From: Candidatus Hydrogenedens sp. | GTDB taxonomy: Bacteria; Hydrogenedentota; Hydrogenedentia; Hydrogenedentales; CAITNO01 | Reading direction: 5' to 3' | NCBI GenBank assembly: GCA_012522755.1 | Contig: JAAYJV010000151.1 | Span: forward strand, 1-64,000 | Length of the DNA: 64,000 bases | Part shown: in pieces, positions 54,816-57,827 of the stretch | Numbering within the stretch: position 1 is the first letter of the stretch | Layout: every line of letters starts with the position of its first letter | Made by a program: the position numbers and the translations under genes | The notes under the pieces: generated by a model | What the model was told of the DNA's origin: nothing | The model's database searches: none | What the model saw: only the letters and a program-made list of their open reading frames with translations

Positions 54816-55592
54816 ATGGATATAAAACGAATCATCCCCTGTCTGGATGTTGTAGAGGGACGGGTAGTCAAAGGCGTCCAGTTTCTCGGCCTTCGGGATG
54901 CGGGCGACCCTGTGGAAATAGCGCACCGCTATGATGAAGAAGGAGCGGATGAGCTTGTTTTTCTGGATATTCGCGCCACTACGGACAACCGTGCCATCCT
55001 GCTGGACGTGATCAAACGGACGGCGGAAGACTTGCATATTCCCCTTTGTGTTGGCGGCGGCATCCGTACCCTGGAAGATATGGAGCGCATTCTGGATGCA
55101 GGTGCCGGCAAGGTCTCCATCAACACACCGGCCATTGAACGTCCCGATTTCATCAACGAAGCCTCTGCGCGATTCGGTTCCGGCCGTCTCGTTGTGGCTA
55201 TTGATGCCATGGGCCGCAGTGCTGAGGAAGGGGGCGGCTACTTTGTGAAAAGCCATGGAGGCCGCGATGGCGGACGGAGCACTTCTCTGGATCCCGTCAG
55301 CTGGGCACAGGAGGTTGAATCCCGTGGTGCCGGCGAGATTTTATTGACGGCCATGGCACAGGATGGCGTCAAATCAGGATATGATATTCGCCTCACCAGG
55401 CAAGTGGCTGATGCGGTGAAGATCCCGGTCATCGCCAGTGGCGGTGCCGGTACGCTGGAACATTTACGGGCTGCACTTCAGGAAGGCGGCGCTGATGCGG
55501 CACTGGCCGCCTCTATTTTTCATTTTCGTGAATTTACTGTCCGCGAAGCCAAGGAATACCTGAAAGAAAAAGGGGTATCCGTCCGCTTGTAA
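54816..55592 (+). CDS. hisF: Imidazole glycerol phosphate synthase subunit HisF
   Basis: 258 aa (beta/alpha)8 barrel cyclase. The catalytic aspartates lie in [15 protein letters not shown] (Asp11 type) and VVAIDAMGR (Asp130 type). Phosphate sites are [13 protein letters not shown] and [11 protein letters not shown]. It works with HisH, which supplies ammonia and is not in the window. AGAGG precedes the ATG. It stands between the AmaP-like gene and trpE without other his genes. Confidence 0.96.
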
Positions 55593-55626
55593 TTTCCCGA
55601 GTTCAAACCAAAGAGGATCTTCTTTC

Positions 55627-55662
55627 ATGAAAGGGCTCGAACAACACATGCGCCGATGGTGA
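55627..55662 (+). CDS. Possible trp leader peptide
   Basis: An 11-codon frame, MKGLEQHMRRW, whose only Trp codon is the last before TGA; AGAGGA lies upstream. It ends 93 bp before trpE. Directly after it, GTCGGG (55693-55698) can pair with either CCCGGC at 55675-55680 or CCCGGC at 55709-55714. This alternative pairing is what an attenuator would need. A single Trp codon and no U-run make the call tentative. Confidence 0.35.
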   Translation: MKGLEQHMRRW

Positions 55663-55674
55663 TGCACAGCTCTC

Positions 55675-55714
55675 CCCGGCTCTTTTATTTCTGTCGGGAA
55701 GAAATCGGCCCGGC
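55675..55714 (+). promoter_or_regulatory. Candidate mutually exclusive hairpins upstream of trpE
   Basis: Stem 1 is CCCGGC (55675-55680) with GTCGGG (55693-55698), loop 12 nt. Stem 2 is the same GTCGGG with CCCGGC (55709-55714), loop 10 nt. GCCGAT at 55652-55657, overlapping the Trp codon, can also pair with ATCGGC at 55704-55709. Neither stem is followed by a T-run, so control would have to be rho-dependent or translational. Confidence 0.3.
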
Positions 55715-55755
55715 ATCCAGGTTGTTGTATTTCGTAACCTTGAGGAACCCTTTCC

Positions 55756-57243
55756 ATGTTAATCCCTTCTCTTGATGACTTCCGACGTCTGGCTCACGAC
55801 CAGGCCATTATCCCTGTGTACAAAGAAATTCTGGCTGATCTGGAAACTCCTGTTACAGCCTATTTGAAACTTTCGCGGCACAGCAACTGCTCTTTTCTTC
55901 TCGAAAGCGTGGAAAAGGCCGAGAATATAGGGCAATATTCCTTCATCGGTGCCAATCCTTCCACCATTTTCCGTTCCAAAGGAGAAGAAGGGGTGCTCAT
56001 CCATGAGGGAGTGGAACATCCCTTCACATCGGCCCGGCCTCTTGATGAACTCCGGCGCTATATGGATCAGTACAAGCCGGTATCCATTCCGGGGCTTCCG
56101 GCTTTTCATGGCGGCGCCGTGGGGTATATCTCCTATGATGAGGTGCGCCATTTTGAAAAACTCCCTGATGAGAATCCGGATACGCTGGGCTTGCCCGATC
56201 TTTATTTCGTCATTACCGATACAATTCTTATTTTTGATCATGTGAACAACAAGATCAAGATCGTGTCCAATGCCCATGTACAAGGCGATGCCGATGCGGT
56301 TTATAACGAAGCATCCCGCAAAATCTCTGAGATTGAAGAGCGTCTCCGCGGTCCTCTGGTTGTGTCTATGGAACGGCTGCACAGTGCGCCGGAAGAAGCC
56401 TGCATAGAATCCAACTTCAGCCGGGAAGACTTCTGCGAAGCTGTGGAGAAGGCACGCAACTACATCCGCCAGGGCGACATCTTTCAGGTCGTCCTCTCAC
56501 AACGCTTCAAACGTCAGGTGGGTGTGAGTCCCACCAACCTCTATCGTGCTCTGCGTTGCATCAACCCCTCCCCTTATATGCTGCTGCTCCAGTTTCCGGA
56601 GTTTGCTCTGGTCGGTTCCAGTCCGGAAGTGATGACTCAGGTCAAAGGCGACCGCGCAATGCTGCGCCCCATAGCGGGTACACGCCCTCGGGGCGCCACA
56701 GCGGAAGAAGATCTGATCCTGGAAGAGGAATTGCTCGCCGATGAAAAAGAAATTGCCGAGCACGTCATGCTTGTTGATCTGGGCCGAAACGATCTGGGAA
56801 AAATCAGCGAGCCCGGTACTGTGGATCCCGTTGCCAACAAATATATGGTTATAGAACGGTATTCCCATGTCATGCACATTGTAAGTGAGGTTGTGGGTAC
56901 ATTGAAGGAAGACTGTTCCGCCTTTGATGCATTGGCCGCAACCTTCCCCATGGGTACGGTGAGCGGTGCGCCCAAAATCCGGGCCATGGAAATTATTGAT
57001 GAGCTGGAACCGGAACGGCGGGGCCCCTATGCCGGCGGTTGTGGAAGCATCTCTTATTCCGGCGATATGGACACCTGCATTCTTATCCGCACCATGATCG
57101 TCAAAGACGGGTATGCCTATATACAGGCCGGTGCCGGCATTGTCCATGACAGCAAAGGGGAAACAGAATATGACGAGACAGTCAACAAAGCCAAAGCGCT
57201 GATGAAAGCAGTGGATTTCGCGGAAAAAGGCCTGGAACCATGA
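55756..57243 (+). CDS. trpE: Anthranilate synthase component I
   Basis: 495 aa. It turns chorismate and ammonia into anthranilate. The tryptophan-feedback site LLESVE is present near residue 50 (SFLLESVEKAENIGQYSFIG), which separates it from PabB. The chorismate-binding core includes GDIFQVVLSQRFKRQ, NPSPYMLLLQFPEFALVGSSPE, RPIAGTRPRGATAEED, EHVMLVDLGRNDLG and GTVSGAPKIRAMEIIDELEP. GAGGAA precedes the ATG. It overlaps trpG by 4 bp. Confidence 0.96.
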   Translation: MLIPSLDDFRRLAHDQAIIPVYKEILADLETPVTAYLKLSRHSNCSFLLESVEKAENIGQYSFIGANPSTIFRSKGEEGVLIHEGVEHPFTSARPLDELRRYMDQYKPVSIPGLPAFHGGAVGYISYDEVRHFEKLPDENPDTLGLPDLYFVITDTILIFDHVNNKIKIVSNAHVQGDADAVYNEASRKISEIEERLRGPLVVSMERLHSAPEEACIESNFSREDFCEAVEKARNYIRQGDIFQVVLSQRFKRQVGVSPTNLYRALRCINPSPYMLLLQFPEFALVGSSPEVMTQVKGDRAMLRPIAGTRPRGATAEEDLILEEELLADEKEIAEHVMLVDLGRNDLGKISEPGTVDPVANKYMVIERYSHVMHIVSEVVGTLKEDCSAFDALAATFPMGTVSGAPKIRAMEIIDELEPERRGPYAGGCGSISYSGDMDTCILIRTMIVKDGYAYIQAGAGIVHDSKGETEYDETVNKAKALMKAVDFAEKGLEP

Positions 57244-57827
57244 TTATCATCATCGACAACTACGATTCTTTCACCTACAATCTGCTTCAGCCTCTGGCCG
57301 ATGTGGAAAAGGATATCCGTGTTTTCCGGAATGACGCCCTGTCTGTGGCTGATCTCAGGGCTTTGAATCCGGAAAAGATAATCATTTCGTCGGGCCCCGG
57401 ATCCGTGGAAGGAGCAGGTATTTCCCTCTCTGTCGTTCAGGAACTTGCTGCAGAAATCCCTGTACTGGGTATTTCACTGGGCCATCATTGTATCGCCAGG
57501 GCTTTCGGATCAACGCTTCTCCCGGCTGATCCCATCATGCACGGCAAAAGATGTGAGATTTTCCACCAGAGCACTTCCCTGTTCCAGGAGCTGCCGTCGC
57601 CCTTCAGAGCCACCTGTTATCACTCACAAGTTGTTGACGCAATTACACTTCCACAAGATCTGGAGATTATTGCCCAGGCGGCCGATAGCACGATCATGGC
57701 TGTCGCACACCGACGTTTTCCACTTGTGGGTTTACAGTTTCATCCTGAAAGTATTGAGACTGAATGGGGCACCCTTCTTTTGCGTAATTTTATGACCAGC
57801 CGGCCGTCGGAACCTCTGGTATACTGA
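57240..57827 (+). CDS. trpG: Anthranilate synthase component II (TrpG/PabA type) with Cys-to-Ser at the nucleophile
   Basis: 195 aa class I glutamine amidotransferase. The fold and partner motifs are intact (IIDNYDSFTYNLLQ, ISSGPGSVEGAG, IMHGK, LQFHPESIETEWG with His168 and Glu170). The nucleophile elbow, normally GVCLGHQ, reads GISLGHHC: Ser79 (TCA) replaces the catalytic cysteine and His replaces Gln, with a cysteine four residues after the serine. Glutaminase activity is probably lost or altered; TrpE alone can use ammonia. Overlap with trpE shows they are co-expressed. Confidence 0.93.
   Translation: MIIIIDNYDSFTYNLLQPLADVEKDIRVFRNDALSVADLRALNPEKIIISSGPGSVEGAGISLSVVQELAAEIPVLGISLGHHCIARAFGSTLLPADPIMHGKRCEIFHQSTSLFQELPSPFRATCYHSQVVDAITLPQDLEIIAQAADSTIMAVAHRRFPLVGLQFHPESIETEWGTLLLRNFMTSRPSEPLVY

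Follow-up and report, generated by a model that had tools for sequence, protein, structure and literature searches.

The trpE locus and its leader

The stretch of DNA analysed here, referred to as the window, comprises 64,000 nucleotides of a contig from Candidatus Hydrogenedens sp. (GCA_012522755.1, JAAYJV010000151.1, positions 1 to 64,000), and carries a short ORF that ends in a tryptophan codon and lies between hisF and trpE. The identities of hisF, trpE and trpG were taken from NCBIfam models, each matched above its cut-off, and the closest named relatives found for trpE were from Candidatus Hydrogenedentota genomes, at 79% and 71% identity. The genes and translation signals of the locus are:

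54816-55592, + strand: hisF, the gene upstream of the leader (ORF; TIGR00735 over cut-off)
55612-55617, + strand: AGAGGA, Shine-Dalgarno-like sequence of the leader, 9 nt before the leader ATG (read from the sequence)
55627-55662, + strand: leader ORF ATGAAAGGGCTCGAACAACACATGCGCCGATGGTGA, MKGLEQHMRRW-stop (read from the sequence; homologous ORF in 16/16 family members with upstream sequence)
55657-55659, + strand: conserved Trp codon, the last sense codon of the window leader (TGG at the homologous place in 16/16)
55742-55746, + strand: GAGGA, Shine-Dalgarno sequence of trpE (read from the sequence)
55756-57243, + strand: trpE, the putatively controlled gene (TIGR00564 over cut-off)
57240-57827, + strand: trpG (ORF; TIGR00566 over cut-off)

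The gap between hisF and trpE is 163 nt, of which the last 93 nt separate the leader stop codon from the trpE ATG (55756). The window leader has a single Trp codon, directly followed by the stop. By its ORF coordinates, trpG overlaps trpE by 4 nt, so that the two are probably co-translated.

The TrpG of the window (57240-57827, + strand) reads PVLGISLGHHC, whereas all 22 of the other genomes that gave a motif match read GVCLGHQ; a GVCLGHQ-type reading was confirmed for the TrpG of G013 and G006. The Ser of the window protein presumably sits at the position of the catalytic Cys. TrpG of the sister genome, G001, reads GISLGCHC, and a Ser at the Cys position is thus common to both genomes of the genus, as is a Cys five residues beyond it. 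Judged from these motifs, the window TrpG may use ammonia only, or may have a shifted nucleophile.

Conservation of the leader ORF

The family to which the window belongs is represented by 17 genomes from 7 genera, 16 of them with readable sequence upstream of trpE; the other, G015, was excluded from all upstream counts as its contig ends 27 nt before trpE. A short ORF with a Trp codon was found at the homologous place in all 16 genomes, spanning the 7 genera. These ORFs end 50-97 nt before trpE, and six of the 16 have at least two Trp codons. Examples are MKGLEQHVRWWRRSAFF in the sister genome G001, MFHHEQRVRRWCGPRI in G011, MFPIDQQVWRWRGAAANA in G007 and MIIQGLEQHAHWWRRWQRHVSYGQA in G004. 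The two g5 genomes retain just the RW part (GCRWRR and CRRWRR), ER takes the place of EQ in G003 and G008, and the start positions of the g3 leaders are uncertain.

A codon test was carried out on the 7-codon leader core of 12 sequences, leaving out G016, G006, G005 and G010, which are near copies or lack the E-Q-H core. Pair differences amounted to 72, 101 and 269 at codon positions 1, 2 and 3, the first six leader codons had a BLOSUM sum of 781 when read in frame and of 111 and 254 when read out of frame, and 19 of 2000 column permutations performed equally well. Change concentrated at third positions, together with an in-frame score far above the out-of-frame ones, is characteristic of translated ORFs. 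On this comparative evidence the leader is a genuine ORF and is conserved, including at the level of its peptide. The E-Q...W core pattern matched 13 times in the 17 genomes, 10 of these at trpE leaders and 3 elsewhere, and since a reversed control pattern gave 4 matches, no second copy of the leader is claimed.

The initial annotation of this DNA had described the MKGLEQHMRRW ORF with a ribosome-binding site 93 nt before trpE, a description borne out by AGAGGA at 55612-55617 and by the TIGR00564 match of TrpE. It had also regarded the combination of a Trp-ending leader with mutually exclusive stems before trpE as unlikely to be meaningless; of these, both leader and Trp codon are retained across 7 genera. 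The check that it proposed, conservation in relatives, had a divided outcome: the Trp codon is conserved (16/16, 7 genera), while for the stems that it named no family-wide conservation was seen.

Absence of a conserved terminator before trpE

The locus had been interpreted as a possible trp transcription attenuator, in which translation of the leader would determine whether an antiterminator or a terminator forms ahead of trpE. The presence of a Trp leader at this place is what such a system would have, and weak terminator-like hairpins with T-rich tails were indeed found in three of the 16 upstream regions (G000, G003 and G004). These three overlap the leader coding sequence, however, and the other 13 regions contain no intrinsic terminator, defined as a hairpin of -6 kcal/mol or lower beside a T-tract. 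By the scan rule used, T-tracts were absent altogether from G002, G011 and G006. An Rfam scan of the window, run at the gathering threshold, returned two tRNAs only, with no match to a leader, riboswitch or T-box. With no conserved intrinsic terminator, the attenuator interpretation is not supported and appears rather improbable. A detail of the earlier description also needs amendment: it had stated that no U-run follows the stems, but UCUUUUAUUUCU does follow CCCCGGC. The hairpin that precedes this run, over the Trp codon, is weak (-8.9 kcal/mol), and the genus's other genome yielded no counterpart of the CCCCGGC-UCUUUUAUUUCU hairpin.

Between 55300 and 55900 no promoter-like site was detected, and two terminator-like sites were found (0.6 expected), one within hisF and the other on the minus strand. 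Given that there is neither a conserved terminator nor a promoter-like site, the leader is probably transcribed together with hisF and acts on translation.

Upstream of trpC, no leader shared across the family was seen by eye. Isolated short ORFs with a Trp codon do occur there, such as KRWR in G016 and KRWH in G013, among others, and the upstream spacer of trpC in the same two genomes contains CGATGGC, the same sequence as around the leader Trp codon (by eye). Some 100-120 nt ahead of trpC, hexamers resembling TTGAAG-N17-TATGAT were noted by eye in G000 (contig C144) and G016, and suggest that trpC and the genes that follow it have their own promoter.

A predicted long-range helix at the trpE start

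The RNA elements considered in the window are:

55626-55638, + strand: P1 5' arm (masking arm), CAUG-AAAGGG plus UC at 55637-55638 (pair probabilities)
55745-55758, + strand: P1 3' arm, comprising GA of the trpE Shine-Dalgarno sequence, spacer CCCUUU, and CAUG with the trpE start codon (pairing, arm swaps, shuffles)
55640-55645, + strand: P2 5' arm, AACAAC, in the E-Q-H codons (probability 0.31-0.41 in the window, 0.99-1.0 in G001)
55721-55726, + strand: P2 3' arm, GUUGUU (fold)
55648-55657, + strand: P3 5' arm, AUGC-GCCGAU, reaching into the Trp codon (fold; compensatory changes relative to G001)
55704-55716, + strand: P3 3' arm, AUCGGC ... GCAU (fold)
55675-55698, + strand: CCCGGC/GUCGGG hairpin (window fold; no support from relatives seen)

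Folding of 55600-55760, which had been put forward as a check, reproduced the stems that had been named and gave a fold of ordinary stability (z -0.21; 92 of 200 shuffles were equally stable). As the window fold alone is unremarkable, it is the relatives that must decide. The conserved RNA feature among them is mainly a long-range helix, P1, in which the start region or first codons of the leader pair with the Shine-Dalgarno region of trpE. In the window it consists of AAAGGG/CCCUUU plus CAUG/CAUG, with pair probabilities of 0.94-0.95 for AAAGGG, 0.45-0.90 for CAUG and about 0.45 for UC.

In 14 of 16 genomes, pairing between the trpE ribosome-binding site and the 50 nt 5' of the Trp codon was predicted at a mean probability of 0.48-0.80 (shuffle means, 0.04-0.27), and in eight of the 16 no more than 10 of 200 shuffles were as good, the window being at 10/200. 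Natural controls were folded in much the same geometry, and a value of 0.45 was reached by 4 of 41 leaderless trpE genes from other families, by 2 of 16 of the family's own trpC genes and, for ATGs internal to trpE, by 42 of 330; the respective Mann-Whitney p values (1e-6, 8e-5 and 2e-8) are optimistic because the rows are related. Five other fold settings gave 11-13 of 16 family genomes versus 4-9 of 40-41 other-family trpE genes and 0-2 of 16 trpC genes, with p values, similarly optimistic for related rows, of 2e-4 to 5e-6 and 1e-3 to 3e-5. The window remained at 0.46-0.65 in all five settings, whereas G003, G005, G006, G008, G009 and G011 fell below 0.45 in some of them and G010 in all. When another stretch was folded, P1 was not predicted in G013, G016, G008 and G010, and G005 paired via a different segment. 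Overall, P1 is predicted in 11-14 of the 16 genomes, varying with the stretch folded.

Taken singly, the duplexes are often not significant: out of 500 shuffles, 50 or fewer equalled the real duplex in 11 of 16 genomes, and the numbers were much higher in G008 (409), G005 (364), G010 (292) and G009 (173). The arms of P1 vary between lineages yet match within each: the perfect 8-bp GAUGUUCC/GGAACAUC in g6 and g7, GGGAUGUUCC/GGAGCAUCCC in g2, AGGACUC/GAGUCCU in G004, and CAGGGACU/AGUUCCUG in G013. In G001 the register is different, and it is the Shine-Dalgarno region of the leader that pairs with the trpE spacer. When arms were swapped between genera in 15 sequences (G016, with a leader peptide identical to that of G013, was omitted), none of 2000 totals was as strong as the real one, and the real mean was -85.4 versus -53.5 kcal/mol for swapped arms. 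The arms of g2, g6 and g7 proved mutually interchangeable in this test, so that few independent changes are represented. Comparison among the genomes thus gives, at the level of sequence, an ORF, a Trp codon within it, conservation of its peptide and, in most genomes, a predicted masking helix.

A fortuitous ORF without any regulation would accord with the unremarkable fold of the window by itself, but not with conservation in 16/16 genomes over 7 genera, nor with the codon-position pattern, the natural controls and the arm swaps, and chance is a most improbable explanation.

Other stems in the leader RNA

Of the stems that had been named, GCCGAU (55652-55657) with AUCGGC (55704-55709) exists as part of P3, which lies over the Trp-codon region. 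Its counterpart in G001 is CGCUGG/CCAGCG, with two two-sided compensatory changes at leader positions 28 and 30 (C-G to U-A and A-U to G-C), and this supports the stem within the genus. Family-wide conservation of it was not seen; the common pairing is P1, which had not been on the earlier list. For the second named stem, CCCGGC (55675-55680) can pair with GUCGGG (55693-55698), and another CCCGGC is present at 55709-55714, but support from the relatives was not seen. Mutually exclusive stems had been proposed. GCCGAU/AUCGGC and CCCGGC/GUCGGG are nested in the minimum-energy fold, and exclusivity applies to the choice of CCCGGC partner for GUCGGG.

Helix P2, formed by the E-Q-H codons and a GUUG segment between the leader and trpE, occurs in g1, g4, g6 and g7, while in g2 the best P2 duplex disagrees with the g2 fold of another stretch. 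Its co-variation by arm swapping was weak (57 of 2000 swaps as strong, G016 omitted), and P2 was not retained as a family-wide co-varying helix.

Proposed control of trpE translation

The reading preferred here, and considered reasonably likely, is that the Trp-codon leader controls translation of trpE by masking its ribosome-binding site, rather than serving as a transcription attenuator, and that the cell probably tunes trpE translation to the supply of tryptophan in this way. We infer that the ORF is translated, that ribosomes stall on it, and that trpE is released by stalling. When charged tRNA-Trp is ample, the ribosome would complete the short ORF and depart, and the RNA would then close: P2 would form between the E-Q-H codons and the GUUG segment, and P1 between the start region or first codons of the leader and the Shine-Dalgarno sequence and spacer of trpE, so that closed P1 would mask the trpE start. 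When Trp-tRNA is scarce, a ribosome waiting on the Trp codon would cover the E-Q-H arm of P2 and abut P1, keeping the trpE site open. The direction of this switch is deduced from the need of a biosynthetic gene. Control would probably extend to trpG via the 4-nt overlap. In g2, g6, g7 and the window the masking arm contains the AUG of the leader itself, so that the starts of leader and trpE would open and close jointly.

The effect of a waiting ribosome was modelled by blocking a footprint from W-18 to W+12, upon which the cost of opening the trpE site decreased by at least 1 kcal/mol in 9 of 17 sequences (for example, from 7.0 to 3.3 kcal/mol in G014, 5.5 to 2.7 in G011 and 8.1 to 5.0 in G004). 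There was no such drop in the window (7.5 to 7.5), nor in G002, G003, G005 and G010. The position of the footprint edge mattered in the window, where the cost was 8.4 at W-21 and reached 3.6 only at W-24. Averaged over 16 sequences, with G016 omitted, opening cost 6.8 when free, 5.6 with the edge at W-18 and 5.0 with the edge at W-24. A block at the leader start opened the window site (3.6) and worsened matters in G008 and in G023, a genome of another family.

These values bear on a simpler scheme of translational coupling, in which translation of the leader opens the masked trpE site and raises output without any sensing of Trp. In the window, the trpE site is freed to a greater extent by a block at the start of the leader than by a ribosome at the Trp codon (3.6 versus 7.5 kcal/mol), and a re-initiation role of leader genes in raising expression has been proposed (PMC4833913). 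Coupling leaves unexplained the Trp codon present in 16/16 leaders, which is the main argument for sensing, as well as the extra Trp codons in 6/16, and it is regarded as unlikely. The helix might alternatively be governed by a protein or small ligand, in a TRAP-like or riboswitch-like manner, with the ORF being incidental. An RNA hairpin that masks the trpE Shine-Dalgarno sequence is known for TRAP (PMC11255114). The ORF is conserved at the codon level, however, and the window has no riboswitch match in Rfam at the gathering threshold, which makes this a very doubtful explanation.

The leader and hisI in other families

The order sample consisted of 68 genomes (the class sample being the same 68), of which 64 had trpE at threshold. 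Outside the family, 47 genomes had trpE, and 42 were read upstream of it; the others (G048, G049, G055, G061 and G067) had a trpE match without a start. In 41 of the 42, hisI precedes trpE. The hisI match ends within 50 nt of trpE in 33 of these 41 genomes, leaving little room for a leader, and further away in the other eight (maximum 512 nt, L131). Short ORFs with a Trp codon were noted in some hisI-trpE gaps of other families (L113, L116, L126, L127, L128 and L135). Within the family of the window, 15 of 17 genomes yielded a hisI, always on a different contig from trpE. Other families thus have hisI between hisF and trpE, and in the window's family the leader occupies the vacated place; descent of the leader from a hisI remnant is a conceivable origin.

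The only exception among the 42 genomes was G023, in which the order is hisF-leader-trpE and the leader is MRTQPLPSLRWRACIHV. Here the trpE site is predicted to pair with the sequence preceding the Trp codon at 0.79, with 6 of 200 shuffles as good. In the region from -215 to -161 relative to trpE (L017), CTTCCCTTC, which lies just before the Trp codon, appears by eye to be complementary to the trpE Shine-Dalgarno region GAAGGGAA in this one genome. A trpE tree grouped the 16 family sequences with a support of 0.986 and placed G023 apart, so the leader of G023, a single genome, may be independent.

A further reading takes up these observations, and combines an arrest peptide with joint masking. 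The peptide E-Q-[H/R/Q]-x-x-R-W-R would itself pause the ribosome in response to Trp or Trp-tRNA, one helix would mask the starts of both leader and trpE, which would open and close jointly, the element would stand at the hisI place of other families, and a second version would have arisen independently in another family. Taken as a whole, this appears to be a long shot.

Comparison with known systems

Among the matches listed in a search of mainly open-licence literature (titles and the starts of abstracts), there was no Trp-codon leader that masks the ribosome-binding site of trpE, and none of such a kind for the phylum Hydrogenedentota. If masking of the trpE site by a Trp-codon leader is the correct reading, an uncultured phylum has reached tRNA-Trp sensing without a terminator, at the place of its relatives' his-trp gene cluster, and with a leader of compact design (about 130 nt).

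It is textbook knowledge that leader peptides can attenuate trp operons at the level of transcription. The present leader resembles trpL of Escherichia coli and peTrpL of Sinorhizobium (see PMC7298713) in being a Trp-codon leader peptide before trpE. Those systems use an intrinsic terminator, however, and none is conserved in the family of the window. In the rtpA leader the terminating ribosome blocks the next start, and a masking helix is not known to be involved. This leader, which precedes the anti-TRAP gene of Bacillus subtilis, was described by Chen and Yanofsky (2003, 2004; cited by PMC11255114), and the likeness to it is that translation of the next gene is set by tRNA-dependent stalling of a ribosome in a Trp-codon leader. 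The rtpA leader differs in controlling an antagonist of TRAP, not trpE.

In translational attenuation of the ermC type, a stalled ribosome is thought to open the masked start of the next gene. As at trpE, a leader ORF overlaps RNA that masks the start of the gene after it (PMC5118997). The signal in erm systems is a drug on the ribosome, unlike the lack of charged tRNA proposed for trpE. Masking of a Shine-Dalgarno sequence by pairing with the leader, the mark of the ermC kind and of the LEU element, was predicted in 11-14 of the 16 family genomes, varying with the stretch folded, and not in all members. Closest among described cases is the LEU element, which precedes leuA in Actinobacteria (Seliverstov et al. 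2005, PMC1262725). There a run of Leu codons pairs with the Shine-Dalgarno box; its authors propose a pseudoknot and consider leader translation to be an unlikely mechanism. Both have a short upstream ORF with codons for the regulated amino acid. They differ in amino acid, target gene and phylum, and also in layout: in the trpE leader the masking arm is located at the beginning of the leader or immediately before the E-Q-H codons, with the Trp codon further 3', unlike the Leu codons of the LEU element, which themselves pair with the Shine-Dalgarno box.
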